Below are positions 2 through 16,686 of a DNA stretch of 20,034 nucleotides, in pieces. The notes under the pieces were generated by a model. The model had not been told where the DNA came from, ran no database searches, and worked only from the letters and a program-made list of their open reading frames with translations. The first letter of the stretch is position 1. Each line of letters starts with the position of its first letter. Origin of the DNA: a virus; IMG/VR virus record IMGVR_UViG_3300032083_002704, positions 1 to 20,034 of that record. One strand, 5' to 3'. Made by a program: the position numbers and the translations under genes.

Positions 2-1039
2 TTTAACACGGTATATCCCAACAGATCTGAATTAAAGAGATTGAAAAATCCCGACAAAGAATCAAGGATATACTCATGTCAAAACTTTGTAGCAGATGCT
101 TTCGAAAGGTTTGTTGCAAAAATGAAACAAGCAGTGGTATTTGGTAATTGCCCAAAGGACCACCCCTACCTAACCGAGATAAAGGTCTATGGAGCCTATC
201 AAGACCCATATGGACTTTATAATGAATACATGGAAGACCTACTTGATTCATTTGTGGATCAAATTAACGAAAAAACAATATTAACTTTTGATGATTGGAC
301 AAACCAATTTCTATTCTTTTGCAAAAGAAATGGTGCAAAATTCCCAATTACCTTTTCAGGATTTCAAAGAACAGACAAATCAAACATATTTACCTCCGGT
401 TTGGCTATTTCAATATCAGATTTAAAAGCAGATGACGACACAAAAAAACAAGAATTCTTTCTAGATTACAAAGCAATAGATTTCTACATAAATACCGCCA
501 AACAATACGGATTTTATGTAGATTTAGATAGACCATGGGTTCTAGTTGCTGATTTAAATTCACCAGCAATGTTATTATACACTAAAAAATATGATTTGTC
601 AACAGTTAATCAAATATTTTCTGAAAATTATTCTTTATGTTATGAAGAAGATATAAGATTACTACGTTCAGCGCTTGAAACATCTTATAATGAATTTATT
701 TATGTTAATCCATACAATACAGATCTAGATACTTCCACATGTAAAACTAAAATTAATATTAATAATAAAATAATAATAAATAATAATATAAATAATAAAT
801 ATTATATAAATATATATATACAATTAAGAAACATAGAAGAATATAATATATTAGCAGATGCTGATATCCGAAGATTAAAAGAAAAAGCAATATTTTTTGA
901 GAAAAAACTTGACACATCCCGTTCAATAAGTTATATTAACAATCAATTCAACCAAATGGTACTTTCAAGACCGGGAGGAATGAACGATCTAATAAATAAA
1001 CAAAAAGAACGGAGGAACAGTGATATTTCAAATAATTGA
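2..1039 (+). CDS. Unknown phage protein, 5' end outside the window
   Basis: The reading frame is open from the first bases of the window (codons begin at position 2), so the TTG at 41 is probably not the real start and the gene begins upstream. About 345 residues are visible. No enzyme motif is recognised. The first 190 residues are mixed alpha/beta with many aromatic residues; the style recalls large virion proteins of marine myoviruses, but this is an impression and not a family assignment. Residues coded by 748-820 form a low-complexity N/I/K/Y tract from DNA made only of A and T. The last 70 residues are helical and charged. The 3' end overlaps the polymerase gene by 20 bases and contains a strong promoter-like sequence at 909-937. 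Confidence 0.7.
   Translation, partial: FNTVYPNRSELKRLKNPDKESRIYSCQNFVADAFERFVAKMKQAVVFGNCPKDHPYLTEIKVYGAYQDPYGLYNEYMEDLLDSFVDQINEKTILTFDDWTNQFLFFCKRNGAKFPITFSGFQRTDKSNIFTSGLAISISDLKADDDTKKQEFFLDYKAIDFYINTAKQYGFYVDLDRPWVLVADLNSPAMLLYTKKYDLSTVNQIFSENYSLCYEEDIRLLRSALETSYNEFIYVNPYNTDLDTSTCKTKININNKIIINNNINNKYYINIYIQLRNIEEYNILADADIRRLKEKAIFFEKKLDTSRSISYINNQFNQMVLSRPGGMNDLINKQKERRNSDISNN
748..820. repeat. 73-base run of only A and T inside a coding region
   Basis: No G or C occurs from 748 to 820. The run is built of ATA/AAT-like units and ends in a short TA dinucleotide repeat. It stays in frame and codes for a stretch of Asn, Ile, Lys and Tyr. The flanking coding sequence has ordinary composition, so this is probably a slippage-expanded spacer between an N-terminal domain and a short helical C-terminus. 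Confidence 0.85.
909..937 (+). promoter_or_regulatory. Sigma70-type promoter inside the upstream gene, reading into the DNA polymerase
   Basis: TTGACA at 909-914, a 17-base spacer and TATATT at 932-937. The sequence before it is A-rich and ends in ACTTGACA, as at the intergenic promoters of this window. It lies about 80 bases before the polymerase start. It is within coding sequence, so chance cannot be excluded, but the match to the local promoter family is close. Confidence 0.55.
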
Positions 1040-2195
1040 TGACAAGAAAGAATGCAGAGGATATTTTGCAGATGGAAGATTAAGGATCAGGGACTTACCT
1101 GAAACTTTAGAAGCAACGTGGGATTGGTCTCCGTTAATTGGAAACAAAGATGTTAAGCTTGCAAGATTGTTTGCTTATGGTCAGTCAATCCAAGACGCAT
1201 GTCCCGATCACCTAAAAGAAAGATTGGAAATAAGGGAAAGAAAAATCAAGGCTCACTTAAAGTCTTTCATAGCATCTAACGTAAACCTATCAGATGTTTG
1301 TTTCTATAATCTTGTTCCTGAGAGAGATATACAGCATTATTACAGTTTATTGAACGAAATAACAGAATGGGTTCTAAACAACAACCCAAGACCTCAAAAT
1401 TATCGTTTGATGCACAATATTAATATTATGTGTAAGGAAATTTCCCAACAAGAAATTAGATTCAATAGAGGCAAGTGGAGAAATCATGCTAAAACAGATC
1501 AGAAAGCAATGTATCTTGTTAAGTCTCATTGGGAAGGAAAATCATTTGTTGATTACAACCCTTGGGGAACCGTTACAGGACGCTTGGGACTCAACCAAGG
1601 GTCTTTTCCTATCCTAAACCTTAAAACCTCACTGAAGGACATTATAGAGCCCAAGTGGGATTGCTTTGTGGAGCTTGACTTTAATGGTGCCGAGTTAAGA
1701 ACCCTACTACACCTCTCCGGGCACCCACAACCCACGGGAGATATCCATGATTGGAATCAAAATAACATTTTTAATAATTCTATTGAACGAGCTGATGCTA
1801 AGAAGAAGATTTTTGCATGGCTTTATAACCCAACTTCAACAGCAATTGACACTGACTACTATGATAAGTCAAAGGTCTTGGAGAAGCACTATGAGGAGGG
1901 AGTTGTTTCTACTCCGTTTGGAAGAGCAATACCTTCAGATGATTTCCACTCGCTTAACTACCTTATCCAATCTACATCTTCAGACAATTTCCTTGACAGA
2001 GCCTGCACAATCCACAGATACTGTAAAGGACTCAAAACAAATGTAGCGTTCCTCGTACATGATTCAATTGTATTAGACGTTCCACTTGATGAAAAAAACA
2101 GAATAAAAGAAATTGTTGAGATCTTCGAGAACACCAAGTTAGGAAAGTTCAAAGTCAATATCAACGTTGGAAAAAACCTTGGAGAATTAAAATGA
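1020..2195 (+). CDS. Family A DNA polymerase, polymerase domain only
   Basis: Template-directed DNA synthesis in phage replication. The C-terminal 210 residues of this 391-aa protein carry the family A palm and fingers signatures: TGRL (186-189); motif A with D220 in VELDFNGAELR; motif B with R257, K261 and Y269 at the spacing of the Pol I O-helix; Q317 in YLIQS; and motif C VHDSI with D348. Two departures are visible: motif C reads HDS where Pol I and T7 have HDE, and the Gly after the motif B Tyr is Asn. At 391 aa it is far shorter than Pol I or T7 polymerase and shows no 3'-5' exonuclease motifs; residues 1-170 are not recognisable. A proofreading domain may be a separate gene outside the window; the 5' nuclease is a separate gene at 10286. 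The GTG start has GGAGG four bases upstream. Confidence 0.88.
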   Translation: MIFQIIDDKKECRGYFADGRLRIRDLPETLEATWDWSPLIGNKDVKLARLFAYGQSIQDACPDHLKERLEIRERKIKAHLKSFIASNVNLSDVCFYNLVPERDIQHYYSLLNEITEWVLNNNPRPQNYRLMHNINIMCKEISQQEIRFNRGKWRNHAKTDQKAMYLVKSHWEGKSFVDYNPWGTVTGRLGLNQGSFPILNLKTSLKDIIEPKWDCFVELDFNGAELRTLLHLSGHPQPTGDIHDWNQNNIFNNSIERADAKKKIFAWLYNPTSTAIDTDYYDKSKVLEKHYEEGVVSTPFGRAIPSDDFHSLNYLIQSTSSDNFLDRACTIHRYCKGLKTNVAFLVHDSIVLDVPLDEKNRIKEIVEIFENTKLGKFKVNINVGKNLGELK

Positions 2196-2998
2196 TAACA
2201 ATCGGACTTGGAAACGCTGGAATAAACATATGTCGCAAGCTCTCAAATTTGGCTAAGCACAAGACGATAGAGCTACACGGCGGTAAAGGCCTACCGGAAT
2301 GTCAAACACACGAAGAGTACGAATCTAGCGTCCCTAAATTAGGAAACAAACTACGACTTGGAAAAGACCAAGACATTTGGATGATTGTTTGTGGAGCAGC
2401 AAGAGTTTCTGGAGCAACCTTGGCAATTTTAGAACAGATCAAAGACCGCGAGGTCAAAGTGATGTATATTGTACCCGATTCTTTCTTTATGTCAGCAACA
2501 CAAAAACTACAACATAAAGTGACATTTGGTGTTCTACAAGAATATGCAAGATCTGGAATGATACATTCTTTAATGCTGGTTTCTAACAAAGAAGCAACAA
2601 CAATCGTAGGCGAAGGCTCTCTAGGCTCTTACTACGATAATGTAAATTCAGCAATTGCTAATTTCCTTGCGAACTATAATTGGTTTAAAAATACGCAACC
2701 AATTATGGGCAATTTACATGAACCAAAAGAAGTATCAAGAATTTGTACCGTGTCTATCGGAGACATAGAAAAAAATGAAGAAAAGTTATATTTTTTACTT
2801 GACAACATAACAGAATCATGTTATTACTATAGTATAAGTTCTGAAACAAAAGAAAATGATAAAAAACTTCTCTCAAGAATCAGATCTTATTTAGAAACAA
2901 AAGAACAAACAACTTTTGGAATTTGGGAAAACGCATCTAACCGTTCGTTTTTCTATTCTATAAAATTTACACATTATATACAATCGGAGGAAAAATGA
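2192..2998 (+). CDS. Divergent FtsZ/tubulin-like protein
   Basis: 268 aa, overlapping the polymerase stop by four bases. Residues 1-185 follow the order of the FtsZ/tubulin GTPase domain. GLGNAGINI (5-13) matches the T1 loop pattern G-x-G-x-x-G-x-N. A strand and glycine-containing loop at 62-76 (IVCGAARVSGAT) sit where FtsZ has GGGTGTG, then a helix, a strand (VMYIVP, 90-95) and a long helix. VSNKEATTIVGEGSL (130-144) resembles the FtsZ IPNDKLL segment, YDNVNSAI (148-155) the T6/H7 region, and GNLHEPKE (173-180) sits at the catalytic T7 loop (NxDxxD). Both the G-box and T7 are degenerate, so GTP hydrolysis may be altered or lost. The C-terminal part is short. Phage tubulins such as PhuZ organise replication compartments or position DNA; a similar role here is inference. 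The alternative is another Rossmann-like fold. Confidence 0.5.
   Translation: MITIGLGNAGINICRKLSNLAKHKTIELHGGKGLPECQTHEEYESSVPKLGNKLRLGKDQDIWMIVCGAARVSGATLAILEQIKDREVKVMYIVPDSFFMSATQKLQHKVTFGVLQEYARSGMIHSLMLVSNKEATTIVGEGSLGSYYDNVNSAIANFLANYNWFKNTQPIMGNLHEPKEVSRICTVSIGDIEKNEEKLYFLLDNITESCYYYSISSETKENDKKLLSRIRSYLETKEQTTFGIWENASNRSFFYSIKFTHYIQSEEK
2799..2827 (+). promoter_or_regulatory. Promoter-like sequence inside the tubulin-like gene, reading into the GIY-YIG gene
   Basis: TTGACA at 2799-2804, 17-base spacer, TATTAC at 2822-2827. It begins ACTTGACAA and ends ATGTTAT like the strong intergenic promoters, but the -10 is a poorer match. It would supply the GIY-YIG nuclease independently. Confidence 0.4.
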
Positions 2999-3612
2999 AA
3001 AATTACAACCAATGGGATTTGTTTTGGAATTCTTTAATCAAAGAAGATATTTTGTTGTTTGATAAAAGCGGCAACAAACCAACAATTTTAAAAACAAACA
3101 GTAAGTATAAGTCTAGATTCAAACACAGCGATAAGATTGAAAATCATATTAAATCAATTATACAAGAAGTTAAAGATGGTACAACAAAAGATAAAGGCGT
3201 TATTTATATGATGTATTATTTTGATAACAACAGAAGAATTCCTCTATACATTGGAAAATCAGAATTTAAAGGAAGAACAAGAAAATACAGCGCCAATGCT
3301 ACAAACTTAAACCCTGCTGGTCCTTTTTTACGATGGGGATCTAGGCCTGATTACCACTTGGGAGATCTTTATGAAGCTTATCGAGGAAATAAATCTACAT
3401 TAAAGTACAAAGATTGGAACAATTCTATTTTTGATTCTAATGGAGAATTCAAAAAAGAAATTTATCTTACAATGGTTTCATTAAATAAAATGAAAGTACC
3501 AATCATGGCTTTTCCGACTTCTGTCACACAAACAGAAAGTACACTTATTACTTGGGCTGGTCATCTTTTTCCAAATGATCTCCTAAACAGGGATGGAAAA
3601 GAAAGGTTTTAA
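2995..3612 (+). CDS. GIY-YIG nuclease
   Basis: 205 aa. GVIY (68-71) and LYIG (84-87) give the paired GIY...YIG strands; arginines at 94 and 96 follow at the place of the conserved Arg. E181 in QTESTLI and N198 in LLNRDG fit the catalytic Glu and the late Asn of the family. These enzymes cut DNA through a single metal site; in phages they act as homing endonucleases or as recombination and host-DNA nucleases. Residues 1-60 are basic and not recognised. ATG overlaps the preceding stop, with CGGAGGA five bases before it. No intron or inserted host gene is seen nearby, so a free-standing homing role is possible but unproven. Confidence 0.75.
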   Translation: MKNYNQWDLFWNSLIKEDILLFDKSGNKPTILKTNSKYKSRFKHSDKIENHIKSIIQEVKDGTTKDKGVIYMMYYFDNNRRIPLYIGKSEFKGRTRKYSANATNLNPAGPFLRWGSRPDYHLGDLYEAYRGNKSTLKYKDWNNSIFDSNGEFKKEIYLTMVSLNKMKVPIMAFPTSVTQTESTLITWAGHLFPNDLLNRDGKERF

Positions 3613-3758: not shown

Positions 3759-5312
3759 ATGAAAAATAACAATACAAGTACGTCCACTTCACAAGGGCAA
3801 CAATTTCAAGAAGATAGTATAGGCTATACTTTTATTGATTCCATCAGAAAAGGAAGATACGTTCTAACCGCTACAATTGGTGATTTAGTTGATAACTCAA
3901 TTGATGCAACAGCAGACAACGTCTGGGTCATTACTCAAGGCCCTTTCGCTTCTATTGAAAGGATTATCCTTATTGATGATGGATTTGGTATGGACGAAGA
4001 ATACCTAAAAGGTTCTTATAAACTTGGATTTACAAGAACAAACAGAACAAATAAACAAAATGGCAAGTTTGGTGTTGGTGGAACCATGGGCTGTTTAGGA
4101 ATAGCCGGTAACAAAATTACCATATCCAGAGATAAAAACGGTCAGGTTTTTGCAAGATCGTATGACATTGACCAGATTAAACTTGAAGATGCTTGGGGTC
4201 ACAATCCAATAATCCCACCTTCTGATTTGGTTGACTTGCTTGACGAATCAGTTGGAAAAGGAAATACTGGTACATTAATTTGTCTTAGCAACTTCGATCG
4301 CGACAATTTTGGAAGAAGAAGAGACAATATTCAAAATAGAATAAAAAAATATTGTGCTGAAACATATTGTGAATATATCACAAGAAATAAAGTCACAATT
4401 CATATTGATGGTAAAGTTGTAGAACCACGAGACCCTTTGTGTTGGTTTCACCCAGATACTATAAAAGCTTACGATGAACCAATAAATGGAACTAATGCAA
4501 GATTGCGTATTGTTAATCTTAAAAACGTACCAAAAGAAATACAAGGCAAAGCACAGTCTAGACAAGGTGGATATATTTATCGTTGTGATCGAATCATAGA
4601 GAGATCAATAACTGGTGAAAACCAAATTTGGAATAAAAAAATTCCAAATCGCCACCAAGGACACAGTTGGTCTCGATGGGGCGTTTACTACGATGCGTCT
4701 GACGACGAAACATTTAACACATCTTATGATAAAAGTTCGGTTAATCCAAGTCAAGATCTTTTAGATAGGATTGGAGAAATAGTAACCCGTGAAATGAATG
4801 TTATCTTTAAGGAGAAAAACCGCAAAGATAAAACACTAAAAACAAAAGAAGAAAGAATAAAGCAAGAAGAATTGACCAATGATATTGCTAATCAACTATC
4901 AAAAGAGCCAAAAAAGACCACAGTTTCAGTAAAAACTGATACTCAAGAGGTGGAGATTGAGATAGAAAGCAAGGTTGTACCTTTGAAATTACCTCAAAAC
5001 CCAATACCCAATATAAAAGTTAAAGTAGTGTCTCTTGGTGCATTAGGTGAGCCTGCGATGATTGTAGCAAATGAAGATCAAACAGAATCTAAATTTATAA
5101 TGCAAATCAATTCAGATAACCCTTACATATCTAAATATTATATGTCTAACGATAGTGATTCTCTTTTGAGATCTGCTGTTGAGGCTTGGTTGCTGTCTCT
5201 TTATCTTACTTTTCAAGGAATGCCGGATGATGAGGACTGTAGTATAATGGATTTTAGAGAGAGATTCTCCAAAAAACTAAGACAAGCAACGTTATCATTC
5301 GATCGTTCCTAA
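3759..5312 (+). CDS. GHKL-family ATPase (MORC/MutL/Hsp90 superfamily)
   Basis: 517 aa. The Bergerat ATP-binding fold is complete: N-box DLVDNSIDA (42-50, E replaced by D as in some members), G1 motif IDDGFGM (72-78), glycine-rich lid KFGVGGTMG (103-111) and a GTLI segment near 171. Around 250-330 lies a transducer-like region with basic residues; 350-390 is a charged helix rich in K and E; the last 130 residues are an unrecognised mixed domain. No gyrase B or topoisomerase VI Toprim domain and no histidine-kinase phosphoacceptor is seen, so it is neither topoisomerase nor sensor kinase. In this superfamily ATP drives dimer clamp closure, often on DNA. It has its own promoter, long leader and terminator, unlike its neighbours, suggesting early or separately timed expression. 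A role in host takeover or counter-defence is inference. Confidence 0.8.
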   Translation: MKNNNTSTSTSQGQQFQEDSIGYTFIDSIRKGRYVLTATIGDLVDNSIDATADNVWVITQGPFASIERIILIDDGFGMDEEYLKGSYKLGFTRTNRTNKQNGKFGVGGTMGCLGIAGNKITISRDKNGQVFARSYDIDQIKLEDAWGHNPIIPPSDLVDLLDESVGKGNTGTLICLSNFDRDNFGRRRDNIQNRIKKYCAETYCEYITRNKVTIHIDGKVVEPRDPLCWFHPDTIKAYDEPINGTNARLRIVNLKNVPKEIQGKAQSRQGGYIYRCDRIIERSITGENQIWNKKIPNRHQGHSWSRWGVYYDASDDETFNTSYDKSSVNPSQDLLDRIGEIVTREMNVIFKEKNRKDKTLKTKEERIKQEELTNDIANQLSKEPKKTTVSVKTDTQEVEIEIESKVVPLKLPQNPIPNIKVKVVSLGALGEPAMIVANEDQTESKFIMQINSDNPYISKYYMSNDSDSLLRSAVEAWLLSLYLTFQGMPDDEDCSIMDFRERFSKKLRQATLSFDRS

Positions 5313-5820: not shown

Positions 5821-5860
5821 AAAAATTTAACTAATGACAATCAAAATCTATGGAGGATAT

Positions 5861-6124
5861 ATGTCTACAAATAAATTCACACTCAATGCTAACGTTTACA
5901 CCGGAAGCTTCACAAAGAAAGATGGAACTACAAGAACAATGCGTTTCTTGAAAGAAAATGCTGTTCCTAACTCTCTTCGAGGATCTGGAGTGAAACCACG
6001 TTATCTTGACTCTAAGCATGAAGTAGTGTTTGATCTTGACCAAAATGGTTGGAGAGTTTTTAATCACAATACTGTAATTGAAAAGCCTTCATTTTCAAGA
6101 CAAGAAGTAACTATCAACGGATAG
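5861..6124 (+). CDS. Small beta-rich protein, WYL_2/DUF2693-like
   Basis: 87 aa from the ATG at 5861, chosen because TGGAGG ends three bases before it; the in-frame ATG at 5834 has no ribosome site. The pattern FTKKDGTTRTMRFLKEN (17-33) followed by VVFDLDQNGWRVFNHNTV resembles the small SH3-like barrel proteins of T4-type phages grouped as WYL_2 (DUF2693), whose typical members read F-TK-x-GexR-x-M-x-x-TL...D...WRsF-x-x-x-xV. Molecular role in these phages is not known to me. It lies behind a strong promoter and a foldable leader. The assignment comes from pattern memory. Confidence 0.6.
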   Translation: MSTNKFTLNANVYTGSFTKKDGTTRTMRFLKENAVPNSLRGSGVKPRYLDSKHEVVFDLDQNGWRVFNHNTVIEKPSFSRQEVTING

Positions 6125-6336: not shown

Positions 6337-7089
6337 ATGGCACTAAATCTAGAAGCGATGCGAGAGAAATTAAATGCATCAAAGAACGGTAACAAAAAAT
6401 CAAATGATACCAAATGGAAACCTGAACAAGGTGACCAAACAATCAGAATCCTTCCTACCAAGGATGGTGATCCGTTTAAGGAATATCACTTTCATTATAA
6501 TGTTGGGAAAAATCCTGGCATTATGTGTCCAAAGCGTAACTTTAATGAGGAGTGTCCTATTTGTGACTTTGCCTCTTCGCTCTGGAAAGAAGGTGTTCAG
6601 AATAACGACGATACCGCTAAACGTGAAGCAAAGAAGCTATTTGTTCGCAAGCGTTATTATTCACCGATCTTGGTTCGTGGAAGAGAATCTGAAGGCGTTA
6701 AGATTTGGGCTTATGGAAAACAAGCTTATGAAACAATATTAGGCTACGTTTGTGATCCCGATTATGGAGACATAACCGATGTTGAGTCTGGAACTGATAT
6801 GGTATTAAATTACAATATCCCCGGAACTCCCGGATCATTCCCTAAGACCATTCTTAAGCCACGTCGTCGTCCGTCTGTTCTCTGCGATGATGATGTTGCG
6901 GACTGTGAAGCCCTGCTAGAATCGATACCTGATATCGGCGCACAGTTTGACCGCAAAACAACAGCAGATGTTCAAGCTTTATTGAACGAAGCCCTTGCCT
7001 CTGACACTGGTGGTGGTTCCTCCGAAACACATAAGTACGGTGGTGAGAAAGATGCTGTTGATGCTGCCTTCGATAAACTCGTAGGCTAA
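6337..7089 (+). CDS. T4 gp32-like single-stranded DNA-binding protein
   Basis: 250 aa. Coats ssDNA during replication, recombination and repair and recruits helicase and recombinase. The zinc ligands are visible: H51, C64, C73 and C76, with spacings of 13, 9 and 3, close to T4 gp32 (H64, C77, C87, C90). The N-terminal segment MALNLEAMREKLNASK (1-16) is a helical, basic arm like the cooperativity domain of gp32. Aromatic and basic residues at 101-126 fit the ssDNA groove. The C-terminal 35 residues contain a Gly/Ser linker and end in a mildly acidic helix, expected to be the protein-binding tail. AAAGGAG lies eight bases before the ATG. The gene is followed by a strong terminator and preceded by a foldable leader, so autoregulation is likely. 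Confidence 0.9.
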   Translation: MALNLEAMREKLNASKNGNKKSNDTKWKPEQGDQTIRILPTKDGDPFKEYHFHYNVGKNPGIMCPKRNFNEECPICDFASSLWKEGVQNNDDTAKREAKKLFVRKRYYSPILVRGRESEGVKIWAYGKQAYETILGYVCDPDYGDITDVESGTDMVLNYNIPGTPGSFPKTILKPRRRPSVLCDDDVADCEALLESIPDIGAQFDRKTTADVQALLNEALASDTGGGSSETHKYGGEKDAVDAAFDKLVG

Positions 7090-7353: not shown

Positions 7354-8475
7354 ATGGCAAAAGTAATACACATGGCTCAAGTAAAACCGGGCAAGATCTC
7401 AATCAAAGATCTCAAAAAATCAATGAACAAGGCAATGGGCATCGAAGCAGCGTATGATCTCACAGAAGAGAGTCCAACCGAAGTAAAAGAGTGGATACCA
7501 ACAGGGTCTCGATGGCTTGATGCAATTATTGCAAAAGGTAAGATGGGAGGAATTCCTGTTGGTAAAATAACAGAAATCGCTGGTCTCTCATCCGTAGGTA
7601 AGTCCTACCTAGCAGTTCAGATAGCGGCACAAGCACAGAAGCAAGGAAAGTTTGTTGTTTATTATGATGCAGAATCAGCAATCGACCCTGTATTCTTGAT
7701 GGATGCTGGAATTGATATGGATAACAATTTTCTTTATGTCCAAGCTGTCTCAGTAGAGAAAGTTCTCAAAGGAATTGAGGATACTATGAATGACTATCCA
7801 GGAATGCAATTCGTATTTATCTGGGATTCAATAGCGGCAACATCTGCCGAGAAAGACTTAGAAGGTGACTTTGATCCTCAATCTAGTATGGCTGTAAAAC
7901 CAAGAATCTTTTCTAAGGCTTTTCCTAAACTAACAGTTCCTTTGGCTAATGGACAACATACCTTGCTTCTAATAAACCAATTGAAAACAAACATAACAAG
8001 TAATATAGCAGAGAAATTGACAACACCTTTCAAGGCTCCCGGTGGTTTAGCATTAGAATACTTCAGTTCTCTTCGCATCTGGCTCACAGGTCGTAAATCA
8101 AAGCAATCATTTGTCTTTGACGAATCAGGTAGAAGAGTTGGTTCGGAAGTCAAAGCAAAGCTCAAGAAGTCTCGCTTTGGAACACAAGACAGAATGGCAG
8201 TATTTCAGATCCGTTGGGGTGATAATGTTGGAATTATGGACGAAGAGTCTTGGTTTGAAGTTATCAAGCAATCATCAGCTTATCGTGTAGGTGGCGGATG
8301 GTGTTACATCAAGACCCAAGATGGTAAAGAACATAAGTTTCGCTCAAAAGAATGGATGGAAAAACTAAAAGATAAGAAGTTCAAAAAGATGATAATTGAT
8401 ATCATGGATGAAGAACTAATAAAGAAATTTGAATCTTCTGGCTCAAACATAGTACCAGAAGGAATAGAAGATTAG
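7354..8475 (+). CDS. uvsX: UvsX/RecA-type recombinase
   Basis: 373 aa, close to T4 UvsX. ATP-dependent strand exchange on SSB-coated DNA, used in recombination-dependent replication and repair. Walker A GLSSVGKS (77-84), the catalytic Glu in YYDAESAID (E107), Walker B FVFIWDS (D158), and LINQLKTN (206-213) matching the RecA NQ motif; loop L2 follows with APGG near 229-232. About 50 N-terminal residues come before the core. The ribosome site is a weaker AAGGA, eight bases upstream. The gene closes its unit with a strong terminator and lies directly after the SSB it would cooperate with. UvsX-like is preferred over bacterial RecA because of length and the gp32-like partner. Confidence 0.9.
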   Translation: MAKVIHMAQVKPGKISIKDLKKSMNKAMGIEAAYDLTEESPTEVKEWIPTGSRWLDAIIAKGKMGGIPVGKITEIAGLSSVGKSYLAVQIAAQAQKQGKFVVYYDAESAIDPVFLMDAGIDMDNNFLYVQAVSVEKVLKGIEDTMNDYPGMQFVFIWDSIAATSAEKDLEGDFDPQSSMAVKPRIFSKAFPKLTVPLANGQHTLLLINQLKTNITSNIAEKLTTPFKAPGGLALEYFSSLRIWLTGRKSKQSFVFDESGRRVGSEVKAKLKKSRFGTQDRMAVFQIRWGDNVGIMDEESWFEVIKQSSAYRVGGGWCYIKTQDGKEHKFRSKEWMEKLKDKKFKKMIIDIMDEELIKKFESSGSNIVPEGIED

Positions 8476-8536: not shown

Positions 8537-8564
8537 TTGACAAACTTTCTAAACGTGTTATGTT
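8537..8564 (+). promoter_or_regulatory. Sigma70 promoter of the UV endonuclease gene
   Basis: TTGACA (8537-8542), 16-base spacer, TATGTT (8559-8564) with extended -10 TG; a second TATATT at 8564-8569 is too far from the -35. Predicted start about 8571, so the Shine-Dalgarno (8578-8582) begins only about seven bases into the RNA. Confidence 0.75.
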
Positions 8565-8587
8565 ATATTTATATCTCGGAGGATATT

Positions 8588-9520
8588 ATGAACAACTATA
8601 ACTTAGGTTACGCTTGTATCAACAAGAACTTCTCAGAACGTTCTAAGAAACAACGCATAACAACAAATCGTGGTATGATAAGACGTACTTTTCTTGAGAA
8701 AGGTTTACCTTATGTATCAGAACTGGCTTTGGCTAATTGCCAAGACCTAAAGAAAATATTAGAATGGAATGCACAACAGGACATACACTTCTTTCGTATG
8801 TCATCTGGTTTGTTTCCATGGGGTTCGGAGTATGCATTCGAAGATCTACCAGACTACGAAGCAATTGCTGAAATCCTATTCGAATGTGGTCTATTTGCAG
8901 AGGAGAATGATATTCGTATCACAACTCATCCTGATCACTTCAACAAACTCACGTCTCCAAAAGAGTCTGTGATACTAAATACAATTAAAGACTTGGAATT
9001 ACACGGTCGTATGTTTGACCTTCTGTGTCTTCCAAGATCACCTTTCGCTAAAATCAACATACATGTAGGAGCAGCTTATGATGACAAACCTATGGCCCTT
9101 GATAACTTTTGCAAGAATTTTCAAAGATTATCCGAAGCAGTAAAAACTAGACTTACAGTGGAGAATGACGACAAGCCCTCACTATATACTACGGAGGAAC
9201 TGTACAATGATATCCATAAACGGATTAATATTCCTGTGGTGTTTGACTACCATCATCACGATCTTCACCCTGGAGAGCAGTCAGAACGTGAAGCCTTGGA
9301 TATGGCTTTGTCTACTTGGCCTGTGGGTATTCGCCCTGTGGTGCATTACTCTGAATCCCGATCTGATGAATATGGGGATCCTAAAATCAAGCCGCAAGCT
9401 CATTCTGATTCTTATGTTCGGCCCGTAAACACCTATGGCTTGGAGATGGACATTATGCTTGAGGCAAAACATAAAGAACAAGCATTGTTCAAAATGCGAC
9501 AATTGATGGAGGAACAATGA
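8588..9520 (+). CDS. uvsE: UV-damage endonuclease (UVDE family)
   Basis: 310 aa. Cuts DNA on the 5' side of UV photoproducts and some other lesions, starting excision repair. The TIM-barrel metal ligands are recognisable: H114 in THPD, H159 in INIHVG, E192 in VENDD, D220 and His residues in VFDYHHHD, H253 in VVHYSES, and a late Glu in the EMDIMLEAK segment. LGYACIN (6-12) is the usual family start. The ATG at 8588 follows CGGAGG at proper distance; the longer TTG frame begins inside the promoter -35 and is rejected. First gene of its transcript. T4 uses the unrelated DenV glycosylase, so this is a functional substitute. The symbol follows bacterial usage. Confidence 0.9.
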   Translation: MNNYNLGYACINKNFSERSKKQRITTNRGMIRRTFLEKGLPYVSELALANCQDLKKILEWNAQQDIHFFRMSSGLFPWGSEYAFEDLPDYEAIAEILFECGLFAEENDIRITTHPDHFNKLTSPKESVILNTIKDLELHGRMFDLLCLPRSPFAKINIHVGAAYDDKPMALDNFCKNFQRLSEAVKTRLTVENDDKPSLYTTEELYNDIHKRINIPVVFDYHHHDLHPGEQSEREALDMALSTWPVGIRPVVHYSESRSDEYGDPKIKPQAHSDSYVRPVNTYGLEMDIMLEAKHKEQALFKMRQLMEEQ

Positions 9521-10197: not shown

Positions 10198-10296
10198 ATG
10201 GATTTTACAAACTTATGGATAGCTTTCGCAGTTGTCTTTATTGGACTACCAACGATTGGGGCGTTGGCATTACATTGGAGGCCAAATGAAAGATAA
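10198..10296 (+). CDS. Membrane microprotein, 32 aa
   Basis: ATG at 10198 follows AAGGAGG at ideal distance, ten bases after the previous stop. The sequence is one transmembrane helix (about residues 6-25) with a short basic tail HWRPNER. Its last 11 bases overlap the start of the flap nuclease, whose GGAGG lies inside this gene. The strong ribosome site and tight packing make it real; it may partner the preceding membrane protein or serve for coupling. Confidence 0.6.
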   Translation: MDFTNLWIAFAVVFIGLPTIGALALHWRPNER

Positions 10297-11248
10297 AAAT
10301 TTACTAATAATAGATGGGCTAAACATGTTTCTAAGGAGTTATGTTGTCAATCCAACAATGACACCAAAGGGACACCCAATAGGCGGCTGTATTGGCTTCA
10401 TAAAGAGCTTGCAAAAGGTCTGTGGTATGTTTAGCCCTGATGAGATAATCGTAGCGTGGGACGGTCATTCTGGCTCCGCTAAACGAAAAGAAATGAACAA
10501 AGGATACAAGGATGGTCGAAAGCCTGTCCGCTTTAATAGAAGAATGATAGAGTTGAACCCGGAAGACGAAAAGATTAACAAAGCAGAACAATATATTAAA
10601 CTCGTGGAGTACTTAAATGAATCACCAATTATTCAAATCGTTGTTGACTATGTGGAAGCCGATGATATTATCGCTTTTGCTTGCCAACACGATAAATATA
10701 GAGATTATCATAAATACATTATCTCAAGCGATAGAGACTTTTTCCAACTCGTCGGATCAGATGTCTCACTCTATCGACCAATCCAAAAAAAGTTGGTTAA
10801 CTTTGAAAATCTCATGGATGAACACGGTATTCATCCCAATAATTTTGCCCTTGCTCGTGCCATTGCTGGAGATAAATCAGATAACTTGCCAGGGATACCT
10901 CGTGCTGGGCTTAAAACAATTAAAAAGTATTTTCCTTTTGTATCTGGTTCAGAGATTCAAACTACTGAAACGATTGCAGAACATTGCAGAAAAGTGGACA
11001 AGCCACTTAAAATTCATCAAAACATACTTGCTGGTTTGGATAGAATAGAAAACAACTACGATGTCATGCAATTATACAAACCAGTAATAGGAAGCACGTC
11101 CAAGAGAACTGTGGATTTCTCAATAAGAGAGTTCGAACCAGAATGGAAAAAAATAGAATTCCAAAAGTATCTGATGCGAGACGGGCAAATTACACTAAAA
11201 TTAGACACTTTGTATGCAAGTTACAATAAAATAATACTTGACAAATAA
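10286..11248 (+). CDS. 5'-3' flap exonuclease (T4 RNase H/T5 FEN type)
   Basis: 320 aa. Removes RNA primers and 5' flaps during lagging-strand replication. Acidic metal ligands are in order: D10 (LLIIDGLN), D59 (VAWDG), E124, D126 and D127 (VEADDII), D149 and D151 (SSDRDFFQL), D196 and D199 in GDKSDNLPGIP, the last also marking the helix-hairpin-helix DNA-binding turn. KRKEMNKGYKDGRKP (66-80) fits the arch with basic residues. ATG 10286 is chosen because GGAGG lies four bases upstream and conserved sequence begins at once; the frame upstream from 10232 lies in the microprotein gene. In Pol I this domain is fused to the polymerase; here it is separate from the short polymerase at 1020. Confidence 0.9.
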   Translation: MKDKNLLIIDGLNMFLRSYVVNPTMTPKGHPIGGCIGFIKSLQKVCGMFSPDEIIVAWDGHSGSAKRKEMNKGYKDGRKPVRFNRRMIELNPEDEKINKAEQYIKLVEYLNESPIIQIVVDYVEADDIIAFACQHDKYRDYHKYIISSDRDFFQLVGSDVSLYRPIQKKLVNFENLMDEHGIHPNNFALARAIAGDKSDNLPGIPRAGLKTIKKYFPFVSGSEIQTTETIAEHCRKVDKPLKIHQNILAGLDRIENNYDVMQLYKPVIGSTSKRTVDFSIREFEPEWKKIEFQKYLMRDGQITLKLDTLYASYNKIILDK

Positions 11249-11288: not shown

Positions 11289-12656
11289 ATGCATAAGGAT
11301 AAGGATACGTTTGTCGGTTACGGCAAGAGTTTTCAAGAGAGCGTTGCTCGGTTGATGATGGAGGATAGACCATTTTGTGATCAAATAGAAGAGGTTTTAG
11401 AATTAGAGTTTTTTGATTCTTCATATCTAAGAGCTTTTGTTGAGATCATTTTGGACTATAGAGAGAAATACGAACAACACCCACATTTTGTCACCCTACA
11501 TACAGAGATAAAAAAGGGTAGCAATAAATATGATGGAGCTGTAAGTAAACAATTGAGGGATTTTGTCGTAAGAATACAATCAAGTGATGTAAATGATAAG
11601 GACTATGTAAAAGATCAAGCGATTGATTTTTGCAAAAAACAATGTTTAAAGAAAGCAATACTTCAATCAGCTAATCTTGTAAAGAAGGGAGATTATGATT
11701 CAATTACAAAGATAATCAATGAAGCTTTGACAAAAGGTAACGATCAAAACTTTGGTCATGATTGGTTCATGGACATTGATGAACGTTATGTGAAACAATC
11801 TAGAAAAGCCATCACAACTGGTTGGAATCGGATGGATGAAATAACAAAGGGTGGCTTGGGAGCAAAGGAACTTGCTGTAGTTATCGCTCCAACAGGCGCT
11901 GGTAAATCCATGGTTCTGGTGCACCTTGGAGCCCAAGCATTGACACTAGGAAAGAAAGTGGTTCACTACACATTGGAACTAGCTGACACTGTTGTGGGTC
12001 TTCGTTATGATTCCTGCTTGTCTAAAGTAGCACTTCAAGATATTATGATTTCTAAAGAAATTGTAAAAGAAAAGATCGATCTAATTGGTGGTAAACTAAT
12101 TATCAAAGAATATCCGACCAAGTCTGCTTCAACCAAGTCGATTAAGAACCATTTGGAAAAGTTGAAAAAGCAAGGCATTTTACCTGATATGGTGATTGTT
12201 GACTACGCTGATTTGCTTCGCCCTGTTTCTGCGACAGCAGAGAAAAGACATGATTTGGAAAGCATTTATGAAGAACTTAGAGGAATGGCTACTGAATTCC
12301 AATGTGCCTTTGTAACTGCATCTCAAACAAACCGTGGAGGTCTTAATGCCGAAGTCATCACTATGGAGTCTATATCAGAGGCTTTCAACAAATGCTTTGT
12401 TGCTGACTTTATCTTTTCATTATCGAGAACTCCGTCGGATAAACAAGCTAATACGGGGCGGATATTTATTGCTAAAAACAGAAACGGACCAGATGGACTG
12501 GTATTTCGTGCAGGAGTTGATTGGTCAACTGTATCAATAGATATCACTGGAAGAGGAGGTGAAGAAGACACACCGCAACTGACCGCCAAGGATCAGCTCA
12601 AATTTATGAAAGAAAAATATAAAACTTTTAATACAAAACTATCAGGGTCTAAATAA
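11289..12656 (+). CDS. Replicative DNA helicase, DnaB/T4 gp41 type
   Basis: 455 aa hexameric 5'-3' helicase unwinding the fork. The C-terminal RecA-like domain shows Walker A APTGAGKS (200-207), a following Glu in VVHYTLE (E230, H1a), Walker B MVIVDYADLL with D305, and the H3 segment FVTASQTNRGG (341-351). N-terminal residues 1-150 are helical and match the DnaB N-domain only in general style, as is usual for gp41 relatives. A primase is not seen in this window. The start is fixed by CGGAGG six bases upstream, and ribonucleotide reductase follows after 16 bases in the same transcript. Confidence 0.9.
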   Translation: MHKDKDTFVGYGKSFQESVARLMMEDRPFCDQIEEVLELEFFDSSYLRAFVEIILDYREKYEQHPHFVTLHTEIKKGSNKYDGAVSKQLRDFVVRIQSSDVNDKDYVKDQAIDFCKKQCLKKAILQSANLVKKGDYDSITKIINEALTKGNDQNFGHDWFMDIDERYVKQSRKAITTGWNRMDEITKGGLGAKELAVVIAPTGAGKSMVLVHLGAQALTLGKKVVHYTLELADTVVGLRYDSCLSKVALQDIMISKEIVKEKIDLIGGKLIIKEYPTKSASTKSIKNHLEKLKKQGILPDMVIVDYADLLRPVSATAEKRHDLESIYEELRGMATEFQCAFVTASQTNRGGLNAEVITMESISEAFNKCFVADFIFSLSRTPSDKQANTGRIFIAKNRNGPDGLVFRAGVDWSTVSIDITGRGGEEDTPQLTAKDQLKFMKEKYKTFNTKLSGSK

Positions 12657-12672: not shown

Positions 12673-14529
12673 ATGGCTATAGAAAACAACATATTATCGG
12701 ACATAACAGTCCACATGAAATACGCTCGGTATCTTCCAGAGCAGGAAAGAAGAGAGAATTGGGAAGAATTGGTTACAAGAAACAAAGAAATGCATTTGAA
12801 AAAGTTTCCACAATTAAAAGATACAATTGATTGGGCATATAAATATGTCTATAACAAAAAGGTCTTGCCTTCAATGCGTTCAATGCAGTTTGGAGGTAAA
12901 CCTATTGATGTATCACCAAACAGAATATTCAATTGCGCTTATGCTCCAATTGATCACATGAAAGTCTTTGGAGAGATTATGTTTCTTCTTCTCGGAGGAA
13001 CAGGTGTAGGCTATTCAGTCCAAAATCATCACGTAGAGAAACTCCCTGCGATCCATAAACCATCGGGAAAGAGAACAAGACGTTATCTAATTGGAGACTC
13101 TATTGAGGGGTGGTCTGATTCTGTCAATGCATTGATGAAGGTTTATTTCACAGGCGGCTCTAAACTACGATTTGACTTCTCAGACATCCGTCCAAAGGGT
13201 GCAAGACTAGTTACTAGTGGAGGAAAAGCTCCCGGACCACAACCTTTGAAAGAGTGCCTCCTTAAAGTACAAGGAATTTTAGATGGAAAAGAAAACGGTG
13301 ATCAACTTACCACAATTGAAGTCCACGATATTATCTGCTACATCGCAGACGCTGTATTGGCCGGCGGTATTCGTAGGGCTGCTCTCATTAGCTTATTTAG
13401 TGCTACTGATCAACATATGCTTGGCGCTAAATCAGGTAAATGGTATGAGACAAACCCACAACGTGGAAGAGCAAACAACTCAGTAGTTATAATGAGACAT
13501 AGGATAGACAAGGAAACATTCCTTGATCTCTGGGATCGTGTAAAAGCTTCCGGTGCTGGAGAGCCTGGGTTTTATTTTACAAACGACAAAGACTACGGCT
13601 GTAATCCATGTTGTGAGATCTCTCTTAGACCATTTCAATTTTGTAATTTGACAGAAATTAACGTTTCTGATGTTAAAGACCAAGATGAGCTAGATAACAG
13701 AGCACAAGCTGCTGCTATCATAGGAACACTACAAGCAGCTTACACAGACTTCCATTATCTGCGTCCTGTTTGGAAGAGAAACACTGAGAAAGACTATCTG
13801 ATTGGTGTATCAATGACAGGCATAGCATCAGGTAAAGTACTTGAATTAGATATGAAAAGAGCAGCAAAGTGTGTAAAGGAATTGAACGCACAAGTAGCCA
13901 AAGAGATTGGAATAGGTCCTGCTTCTCGTTGCACTACAGTGAAACCAGCAGGAACAACAAGTCTGACTCTTGGAACAAGTTCTGGAATTCATGCGTGGCA
14001 TAACGACTATTATCTACGCAGAATCCGCGTAGGAAAGAGTGAAAGCATTTATTCTTATCTACAAATAAATCACCCAGAATTGATCGAGGATGAATTTTTT
14101 AGACCTCATGACACTGCTGTCATCTCTGTGCCTCAAAAAGCTCCTGAAGGGGCAATTACGCGTCACGAATCGGCATTAGATTTGCTTGAGAGAGTAAAGA
14201 AAGTTCATCTCGAATGGGTAAAGATAGGACACAGGAAAGGACAAAATACTAACAATGTGTCTGCCACTATTACTATCAAACCTGACGAGTGGCAAGAAGT
14301 TGGAGACTGGATGTGGGATAACAAACACAACTATAACGGCTTATCAGTTTTGCCATTCTCTGAGCATAGTTACAAACAAGCTCCTTTTGAAGATTGCAGC
14401 AAGGAAGAATATGAATCCTTAATGCCTTCTCTAAAAGAAGTAAATTTGGACAATGTGATAGAGATAGATGATAACACAAACCTCACAGGAGAGCTTGCTT
14501 GTGCAGGTGGAGCTTGTGAGATCACATAA
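12673..14529 (+). CDS. nrdJ: Class II (adenosylcobalamin-dependent) ribonucleotide reductase
   Basis: 618 aa. Reduces ribonucleotides to deoxyribonucleotides using coenzyme B12 to form the thiyl radical. C88 (RIFNCAY) and C324 (FQFCNLTEIN) are the redox pair; N311, C313 and E315 in GCNPCCEISL form the active-site triad. The C-terminal tail has C610 and C615 (ACAGGACEIT) for re-reduction by thioredoxin or glutaredoxin. LLLGGTGVGYSVQ and KPAGTTSLTLGTSSGIH are typical family segments. No N-terminal ATP-cone and no companion small subunit gene are seen, which supports class II over class I. It depends on host or environmental B12. It lies behind the helicase in one transcript and is followed by a new promoter. 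Confidence 0.93.
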   Translation: MAIENNILSDITVHMKYARYLPEQERRENWEELVTRNKEMHLKKFPQLKDTIDWAYKYVYNKKVLPSMRSMQFGGKPIDVSPNRIFNCAYAPIDHMKVFGEIMFLLLGGTGVGYSVQNHHVEKLPAIHKPSGKRTRRYLIGDSIEGWSDSVNALMKVYFTGGSKLRFDFSDIRPKGARLVTSGGKAPGPQPLKECLLKVQGILDGKENGDQLTTIEVHDIICYIADAVLAGGIRRAALISLFSATDQHMLGAKSGKWYETNPQRGRANNSVVIMRHRIDKETFLDLWDRVKASGAGEPGFYFTNDKDYGCNPCCEISLRPFQFCNLTEINVSDVKDQDELDNRAQAAAIIGTLQAAYTDFHYLRPVWKRNTEKDYLIGVSMTGIASGKVLELDMKRAAKCVKELNAQVAKEIGIGPASRCTTVKPAGTTSLTLGTSSGIHAWHNDYYLRRIRVGKSESIYSYLQINHPELIEDEFFRPHDTAVISVPQKAPEGAITRHESALDLLERVKKVHLEWVKIGHRKGQNTNNVSATITIKPDEWQEVGDWMWDNKHNYNGLSVLPFSEHSYKQAPFEDCSKEEYESLMPSLKEVNLDNVIEIDDNTNLTGELACAGGACEIT

Positions 14530-15216: not shown

Positions 15217-15979
15217 ACAATTGCTAAAAGAAATGATTCTTAACGAAATGAATGAGGGGATGATGAATCCTCAAAGCATAGAACAAGACGTTAAAAAAAT
15301 CATAAACTCATTCAAACAAGCCGAAGGTGCTTCGCAAGTTGCAATGATAACTGCTGAAGAACCACCTGGTGCTGGATCCAATTTTGAATGGAATAATGAT
15401 GAAATGCAGGGTTATCTAAAAATGGATTTGAATGGCAAAGGATATGATTATTATCCTATCGATGGTGACTATGGTGCACTAGAAAATTCTTTGTTCGTTG
15501 TTGTACAAGGTGAACCAAGGCCAAATTTTTATGACGATATGGTGAGATTGGGCAAGAAATATAACCAAGACGCTGTTATAGTTGGACGAAAGCAAGAATC
15601 GATGCAGACGGATCCAACACAACAAGGACCAGCATATCACATGGAGTTCGAAATGATCTCACTCCATCCAACAAAGACAGGACACCCAAACATGGACCCT
15701 AGACAACAAAGCGTAACTGATACAAGAGACCAAACACAAACAGGACCAAGCGTTCAAGGTAGACAGAGTTTCTTTTCTCGAGCTGGGTCATTCAAATTTG
15801 TTGTACCGTTCTTTTCACCAAGTCCGGCGGATCAAACAACTTTCCGAGGTAACGTGAGAGATGTTCGGGAACAAATATCTTCCTTGCAAGAACAAGTGAA
15901 GAATACGAACTCTACTTTGAAAAAAAGAGCTTTAAGATTTGAAATAGAAAGGTTGTACAAAATTCAAAGGAATCGATAA
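15203..15979 (+). CDS. DUF3293-like phage protein
   Basis: 258 aa. Residues 46-130 follow the DUF3293 pattern: AMITAEEP (47-54), WNND (63-66), YYPIDGDYGALENSLFVV (83-100) and LGKKYNQDAVIV (116-127). DUF3293 proteins are small and uncharacterised. The N-terminus MKLTKQLLKEMI is a short amphipathic segment also seen at the starts of other marine phage proteins. After 130 comes a polar Gln/Thr/Pro-rich linker (135-185), then a basic helical end with heptad-like spacing. It overlaps the co-chaperonin gene by 14 bases and shares an A with the thyX start. Confidence 0.6.
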   Translation: MKLTKQLLKEMILNEMNEGMMNPQSIEQDVKKIINSFKQAEGASQVAMITAEEPPGAGSNFEWNNDEMQGYLKMDLNGKGYDYYPIDGDYGALENSLFVVVQGEPRPNFYDDMVRLGKKYNQDAVIVGRKQESMQTDPTQQGPAYHMEFEMISLHPTKTGHPNMDPRQQSVTDTRDQTQTGPSVQGRQSFFSRAGSFKFVVPFFSPSPADQTTFRGNVRDVREQISSLQEQVKNTNSTLKKRALRFEIERLYKIQRNR

Positions 15980-16686
15980 TGCCTTATGCTAAAACGATAC
16001 CCTTATACCATGATGATATCGGTTGTGTCTCTTATGTGGAGCACATGGGGACTGATCTTACTGTTGTTAATTCAGCAAGAGTCTCCTTTGGTGTCGAGAA
16101 AGCTGAGCTTGATAGTAAAGACAAAAAGCTTATTAAATATCTCATTAAACACAGACATACTTCAACTCTGGAGCACAACACAATTACTTTTAGGTTTACT
16201 GTGCCTTTATTTGTTCGCTCACAACATCACAGACATCGTACTTGGTCTTATAATGAAATCTCAAGAAGATACACAGACAAAGACCTCAACTTCTATCTTC
16301 CGAACAATTTTCGAACACAGCACAAATCTAACAGACAAGCATCAAACGCCGAAGAGTTAATAAACCCAAGAGTTTATGGTGATTTGTCCCCTTTGACAGC
16401 GAAAGAGCTTTTAGAAAACAAAACTTATGAATGTTTAGACACTTTCAATAACTTGTTAGAAGCTGGTGTTTGTAGAGAACAAGCAAGAATGATTTTACCA
16501 CAAAATCTTTACACAGAGTATTACGGAACAGTCAATCTCAATAATTTACTTAAATTTATTGGTCTTCGAACTCACGAAGGAGCCCAATGGGAGATCCAAA
16601 AAGTAGCAGAAGCATGTTTAGAGATCGCTACGGATCTTTGGCCGGAAACGGTAACAGCTTACAGGAGCATTAGAAATGAGCAATAG
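15979..16686 (+). CDS. thyX: Flavin-dependent thymidylate synthase ThyX
   Basis: 235 aa. Makes dTMP from dUMP with methylene-tetrahydrofolate and FAD/NADPH. The signature R-H-R-x-x-S-x-N-E-x-S-x-R-Y is complete at 85-98 (RHRTWSYNEISRRY). HTSTLEH (60-66) is the usual upstream motif, and LRTHEGAQWEIQ near 196-207 the usual C-terminal substrate-binding segment. The start codon overlaps the previous stop. With the B12-dependent reductase it provides the dNTP supply. Confidence 0.95.
   Translation: MPYAKTIPLYHDDIGCVSYVEHMGTDLTVVNSARVSFGVEKAELDSKDKKLIKYLIKHRHTSTLEHNTITFRFTVPLFVRSQHHRHRTWSYNEISRRYTDKDLNFYLPNNFRTQHKSNRQASNAEELINPRVYGDLSPLTAKELLENKTYECLDTFNNLLEAGVCREQARMILPQNLYTEYYGTVNLNNLLKFIGLRTHEGAQWEIQKVAEACLEIATDLWPETVTAYRSIRNEQ

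Follow-up and report, generated by a model that had tools for sequence, protein, structure and literature searches.

A predicted tubulin/FtsZ-fold protein linked to a short family A DNA polymerase in T4-like phages

The known phage tubulins come from a small number of jumbo-phage lineages, in which they are accessory. The window analyzed here is a stretch of 20,034 nucleotides of viral DNA (IMG/VR record IMGVR_UViG_3300032083_002704, positions 1 to 20,034), in which a first-pass annotation made from the sequence alone had proposed a possible divergent tubulin/FtsZ-like protein within a replication operon. The locus raises the question of whether the 268-aa product truly belongs to the tubulin/FtsZ superfamily and, if so, what a tubulin fold might do beside a DNA polymerase. 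The gene begins inside the preceding one, since its ATG shares bases with the TGA of the PolA ORF in an ATGA overlap (2192-2195). The motifs on which the annotation was based are all present in the protein, i.e., GLGNAGINI at T1 (residues 5-13), the degenerate G-box CGAARVSGAT (67-76), the segment VSNKEATTIVGEGSL (130-144) and GNLHEPKE (173-180). The features of the gene, the protein and the surrounding operon are collected in Table 1.

Table 1. Features of the tubulin-fold gene, its product and the replication operon (nucleotide positions in the window unless residues are given).
Feature	Position	Strand	Details
Conserved upstream ORF	41..1039	+	In 76 of the loci compared; no family match
Family A DNA polymerase (PolA)	1020..2195	+	391 aa, polymerase domain only; PF00476 3.6e-12, phrog_17 6e-20
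GGAG, plausible ribosome-binding site	2181..2184	+	Sequence; 7 nt ahead of ATG
Tubulin/FtsZ-fold protein gene (predicted fold)	2192..2998	+	ATG to TGA, 268 aa, ends exact
T1 loop, GLGxAG	Residues 5-10		Of the 268-aa protein
Shortened T4 loop	Residues 67-75		
T6 Asn; H7 Tyr-xxx-Asn	Asn132; Tyr148, Asn152		Guanine-contact positions
Segment in place of T7	Residues 168-183		
C-terminal beta domain	Residues 184-260		
Small Sm-like/WYL_2 type protein	5834..6124	+	PF10902 1.3e-5, below its cut-off
T4 gp32-like single-strand DNA-binding protein (SSB)	6337..7089	+	PF08804 1.7e-15, phrog_1192 3.8e-26
UvsX/RecA-like recombinase	7354..8475	+	phrog_97 1.4e-57
5'-3' exonuclease	10232..11248	+	PF02739 7.4e-28
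DnaB/gp41-like replicative helicase	11289..12656	+	phrog_19 2.8e-78

Searches of Pfam, PHROG and NCBIfam returned no credible family for the window protein, and the single-sequence Pfam and PHROG matches (Peptidase_C8, 0.026; phrog_15532, 0.02) were set aside as noise. The Pfam tubulin profile PF00091 gave weak matches in 8 of 69 members, the best with an E-value of 0.0048 and none reaching the curated cut-off of 33 bits, while an hmmsearch against PDB sequences brought up FtsZ at E-values of 0.7-2.5, which are suggestive only. With tblastn, two family members found no match at E 1 among 50,697 phage records, PhuZ phages included.

The fold was considered at the level of predicted structure and of profiles. 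An AlphaFold2 model of the 268-aa protein, built on a 68-sequence alignment, had a mean pLDDT of 94.1 and a pTM of 0.92, and the predicted models contain the two domains of a tubulin, i.e., a Rossmann-like GTPase domain, the core helix H7 and a C-terminal beta domain. When the model was compared with the PDB by Foldseek, all of the 50 matches listed were FtsZ, CetZ, TubZ or tubulin (E ~1e-10 to 3e-9); PhuZ structures were absent among these 50, which is no evidence against kinship. VIA-align over residues 1-268 gave Z scores of 24.4 for CetZ (rmsd 2.7 Å over 249), 23.9 for FtsZ, 22.5 for TubZ and ~21 for tubulins. The model of a distant member (L027, ~36% identical), which is not a fully independent test since its own 60-row alignment consists largely of the same family, reached a pLDDT of 93.2, with Z scores of 24.6 to CetZ and 23.1 to TubZ. 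Profile-profile comparison by hhalign yielded an E-value of 2.1e-4 against 31 FtsZ sequences over 153 columns of the N-domain, from T1 to H7, and one of 2.9e-5 against seven PhuZ sequences over 91 columns of the N-domain only; the PhuZ match was the best of three hhalign profiles, and the positive control, PhuZ against FtsZ, gave 4.7e-7. The model, Foldseek, VIA-align and hhalign thus agree with the first-pass annotation: the protein is a divergent relative of tubulin and FtsZ, and in the model its N-terminal domain has the tubulin topology. Of the two outcomes that the annotation had named as refuting, a structure without this topology and a strong profile match to another Rossmann family, neither was observed. 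The profile comparison that the annotation proposed was confined to residues 1-185, but the whole 268 aa is predicted to form a two-domain tubulin fold. On this modelled fold, we consider the assignment of the protein as a divergent tubulin/FtsZ homologue well supported.

Relatives of the protein are numerous and come from a large set of uncultured T4-like phages. There were 35 close ones in IMG/VR and 14 in a second scan, and a profile search found relatives encoded on at least 557 IMG/VR stretches, with identities to the window copy ranging from 100% down to ~32%. G5, G7, L77, Q116, R120 and S121 are invariant in all 162 unique members, and because of these invariant residues and the size of the family the motif pattern lies far beyond chance. 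Across the family the G-box has the consensus [CGAS]G[SA]GK[IV]SGA; the window copy, GAARVSGA, is a little more degenerate than in its kin. At the end of H5 lies the most invariant stretch, LQEYARSG, which is private to this family and, judging from the topology of the model, would be expected on the side of the protein that faces away from the nucleotide. In BFVD the closest viral protein, with only 12% identity, is labelled 'FtsZ' (452 aa) and comes from an uncultured phage, so the family seems to be unrepresented in that collection. The sole match in a bacterial genome (L134; CP070664.1, a WOR-3 MAG chromosome) is a phage replication fragment scaffolded between N runs; the scaffold is likely a chimeric assembly, and the fragment, being a phage piece between N gaps, is uninformative on the host.

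The nucleotide site is partly kept and partly lost. In the hhalign alignment N132 falls on N165 of E. coli FtsZ (T6), Y148 on F182 and N152 on N186 (H7), the positions known in FtsZ and tubulin to bind the guanine base (N206, Y224 and N228 of tubulin). A T6 Asn and an H7 aromatic-xxx-Asn/Asp are retained in most of the 162 members: N132 occurs in 155, N152 in 153, with Asp in 3 more, and Tyr or Phe at position 148 in 144. The T1 motif is likewise retained. Where the T4 signature GGGTG[ST]G would be expected there is a shorter G[SA]GK[IV]SG, and the T3-bearing stretch of FtsZ is missing. Of the 162 members, 160 lack the T7 motif NxDxxD, and no more than two match it even loosely within residues 160-190; position 177, the most acidic column tallied in this region, is E or D in about half of the members. 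By our own assignment of the elements, the secondary structure predicted after H7 runs as loop, S7, hairpin, S8, H10, S9 and S10, with H8 and H9 appearing to be lost from the model, which stops 8 residues past its last strand. The altered nucleotide chemistry suggested by the first-pass annotation is in keeping with these data, the T6/H7 base-contact residues being kept and T7 lost. We predict that the protein binds a guanine nucleotide and that tubulin-type hydrolysis between subunits has been lost.

The genetic context of the gene is strongly conserved. The usual order is an ORF of ~850 aa and one of ~400 aa, both unknown, PolA (~395 aa) and the tubulin-fold gene, often followed by the small Sm-like protein (present in 59 loci, often between the tubulin-fold gene and SSB), SSB, UvsX, 5'-3' exonuclease and gp41-type helicase. 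The two strongly conserved ORFs upstream of PolA (~400 aa, in the window at 41-1039, and ~850 aa, in L004 at 1-2673) have no convincing Pfam or PHROG match. In loci retrieved by way of the tubulin-fold protein, PolA was found upstream in 80 of the 81 that are long enough, and the two genes overlap or are at most 1 nt apart in 36; a gp32-type SSB follows downstream in 95. In about half of these loci one or more genes separate PolA from the tubulin-fold gene, and one subgroup has an ORF of ~790 aa inserted there (L027 2025-4403, also L023, L024, L025, L028 and L032). When loci were selected by PolA alone, the tubulin-fold gene was downstream in 80 of 80, and in 56 of these within ~20 nt. Linkage of the tubulin-fold gene to PolA is thus well supported. 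The catalytic motif residues of PolA are invariant in 24 relatives. Six long contigs each carry exactly one copy of the tubulin-fold gene, and a PF00091 tubulin was found in none of the six. The T4 Gp23 capsid protein is encoded on all four of the largest tubulin-bearing contigs tested (E ~1e-62), and a family B polymerase on none of seven long ones (155-204 kb). A search for the gp45 clamp C-domain was empty and had no useful positive control.

Several other genes of the window are also of note. Directly after the tubulin-fold gene there is a 205-aa ORF (2995-3612) with a GIY-YIG-like start (VIYMMYYF...LYIGKSEFKGRTRKYS) and no library match; its relatives occur at other sites in other loci (L010 9080-9751), as those of a mobile nuclease would. 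A GHKL/HSP90-type ATPase (3759-5312; PF13589 4.3e-15, with a weak PADLOC match to MzaB, 4.2e-6) lies between the tubulin-fold gene and SSB in a slot of variable content, which holds this ATPase in only 4 of ~100 loci and other cargo in many others. Further along are a UV damage endonuclease UvdE (8537-9520; TIGR00629 1.8e-65), a B12-dependent RNR (12673-14529; TIGR02505 1e-82, below its cut-off) and a ThyX (15979-16686; TIGR02170 1e-49).

In a sister clade the PolA-like gene is altered. Among the matches listed, the nearest cultured UvsX is that of Microcystis phage Mel-JY01 (33%), whose locus has the same gene order without the tubulin-fold gene. Together with 80 further viral contigs (L285-L364), Mel-JY01 (L203 15712-16938) makes up a set of 81 loci, in every one of which the profile detects a homologous PolA-like gene (E 1.1e-9 or better). 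In all 81 the Glu of motif A is replaced by His, an Arg of motif A by Lys and the His of motif C by Tyr, with the catalytic aspartates still present; this gene is possibly a repurposed PolA. The tubulin-fold gene was found in none of the 81 loci, some of which are cut short downstream while many complete ones agree. The family profile (A3), which matches all six of the tubulin-bearing contigs, had no match in Rhodothermus phage RM378 or in Mel-JY01. A 428-aa ORF in the same slot of Mel-JY01 had been considered as a longer FtsZ and was rejected, as it matches S-adenosylmethionine lyase. A family B polymerase was detected in 6 of 8 long sister-clade contigs and in Mel-JY01. Given this distribution and the 0/81 result, the tubulin-fold gene goes with canonical PolA as the sole detected polymerase. 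The PolA/PolB contrast is one between two clades, and may reflect a single evolutionary event.

What, then, might the protein do? We lean, with slightly less than even confidence, towards a protein that binds a guanine nucleotide, is non-hydrolysing or hydrolysis-impaired, and serves as a partner of the PolA replication machinery. This reading is favoured because parts for longitudinal contact are missing, the residues for base binding are retained along with a private surface, and the gene strictly follows PolA. Its placement after PolA and before the gp32-type SSB is near-obligate, and the overlap is often of the translational-coupling kind. In such a mechanism a minimal two-domain tubulin/FtsZ-fold protein would bind GTP or GDP without hydrolysing it in the tubulin manner, and a conserved surface of its own (Q116, Y118, R120 and S121, at the end of H5) would act on PolA, SSB or the replication complex, giving it the role of a nucleotide-gated accessory or scaffold subunit. 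The linkage to PolA may, on the other hand, reflect co-expression and not contact, and the genes that intervene in about half of the loci retrieved by way of the tubulin-fold protein also weigh against this reading. A broader formulation, which we hold tentatively and well short of even confidence, is that the tubulin fold has here moved out of the cytoskeleton to become a guanine-nucleotide-gated core subunit of a DNA replication complex, forming an obligate pair with the short PolA of those T4-like phages that have no detected PolB.

The first-pass annotation had pointed to PhuZ-like centring or compartment formation, and a cytoskeletal filament with such a PhuZ-type role, positioning replicating phage DNA or enclosing it in compartments, is the main alternative, although an unlikely one in our estimate. 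The whole tubulin fold is present in the model, the best hhalign profile match is to PhuZ, and the gene sits in a replication operon; yet T7, H8 and H9 are missing and T3 and T4 shortened, which takes away much of the usual longitudinal contact and speaks against a dynamic filament of the PhuZ style, so that any filament would be static or atypical. PhuZ uses a long C-terminal extension, whereas the model ends soon after S10 without one. Loss of the catalytic Asp does not by itself exclude polymerisation, since the hydrolysis-deficient D198A mutant of PhuZ still forms filaments (PMC10299810). Against a PhuZ-like role stands also the distribution of the gene, as PhuZ, a protein of chimalliviruses, can be dispensed with and is encoded by 66% of its phages (PMC10299810), in contrast to a tubulin-fold gene that accompanies PolA without exception in the PolA-selected loci.

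Other readings appear less probable. As an FtsZ mimic, the protein would inhibit host division by capping or poisoning host FtsZ filaments during infection, and with its nucleotide-side pocket kept and no T7/H8 face it could in principle terminate a filament; phage proteins that target FtsZ exist, such as T7 Gp0.4 (PMC13423816). We consider this improbable in view of the strict tie to one type of PolA and of the most invariant residues (Q116, R120 and S121), which are not FtsZ-conserved positions, and docking on host FtsZ is doubtful because the T3/T4 loops are altered. We give similarly little credence to a passenger that is merely co-transcribed and does something other than replication, for instance in nucleotide sensing or late assembly. 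An operon of mixed content is conceivable, given upstream neighbours (clusters 3 and 6) with no known function and a capsid gene encoded ~20 kb away on the same strand, but a passenger would hardly be expected to occur in every PolA-selected locus and in no locus of the altered-PolA clade. A generic Rossmann NAD(P)-type protein, FtsZ-like at its GxGxxG start only, was considered as a rival, and weak Pfam TrkA_N matches do occur in 40 of 69 members (best 4.2e-5). The TrkA profile aligns, however, over 32 columns at this start only, while the guanine-contact positions are conserved and the full-length similarity to CetZ and FtsZ (Z 24) includes the C-terminal domain; a plain Rossmann identity was rejected and is nearly excluded.

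The protein would show that a tubulin fold can persist without the polymerisation and hydrolysis machinery. The family constitutes a separate, much smaller tubulin-fold family that Pfam, PHROG and NCBIfam assignment has missed, its gene seems to be no less constant in these phages than that of the DNA polymerase, and the protein gives a concrete starting point for asking what a tubulin fold does beside a polymerase.

Comparison with known systems places the family outside FtsZ, TubZ, PhuZ and CetZ, because the defining T4 and T7 features are not found in it. FtsZ and CetZ are its best full-length structural matches (Z 22-25), and the T1, T6 and H7 positions align; in contrast to them it lacks the T7 NxDxxD, has shortened T3/T4, has no H8/H9, has a core ~40 aa shorter, and stays below the PF00091 cut-off with a structural-alignment identity of 9-14%. 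TubZ, the partition tubulin of plasmids and phages, works with TubR/tubC partners; it has the same fold (Z 22.5-23.1) and is likewise encoded on mobile elements, but is longer (381-414 residues in solved chains), and the T7 motif is absent here. PhuZ of the nucleus-forming phages of the phiKZ/201phi2-1 type, the nearest family among phages, is also a phage-encoded tubulin/FtsZ homologue with profile similarity to our family; it measures 314-327 aa against 268 aa, and it has a catalytic Asp and forms dynamic filaments (PMC10299810), whereas the present protein has neither a T7-type catalytic Asp nor a C-terminal assembly extension, has lost T7/H8/H9, and is tied to PolA in phages with a T4-type capsid. 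A survey of jumbo phages discusses tubulin for jumbo phages only (PMC7824862), and tubulin and FtsZ go unmentioned in the main texts of the Far-T4 paper (PMC4360716) and of a virioplankton PolA survey (PMC6302109); these are open papers only, and an earlier description elsewhere is possible. With the T4-type and Far-T4 modules the operon has in common the gp32 SSB, UvsX and gp41-type helicase, and the four largest contigs tested also carry the Gp23 capsid; it differs from them in that PolA replaces PolB and the tubulin-fold gene stands between polymerase and SSB. The family also divides a T4-like assemblage in two, one branch having PolA plus tubulin and the other PolB together with an altered PolA.
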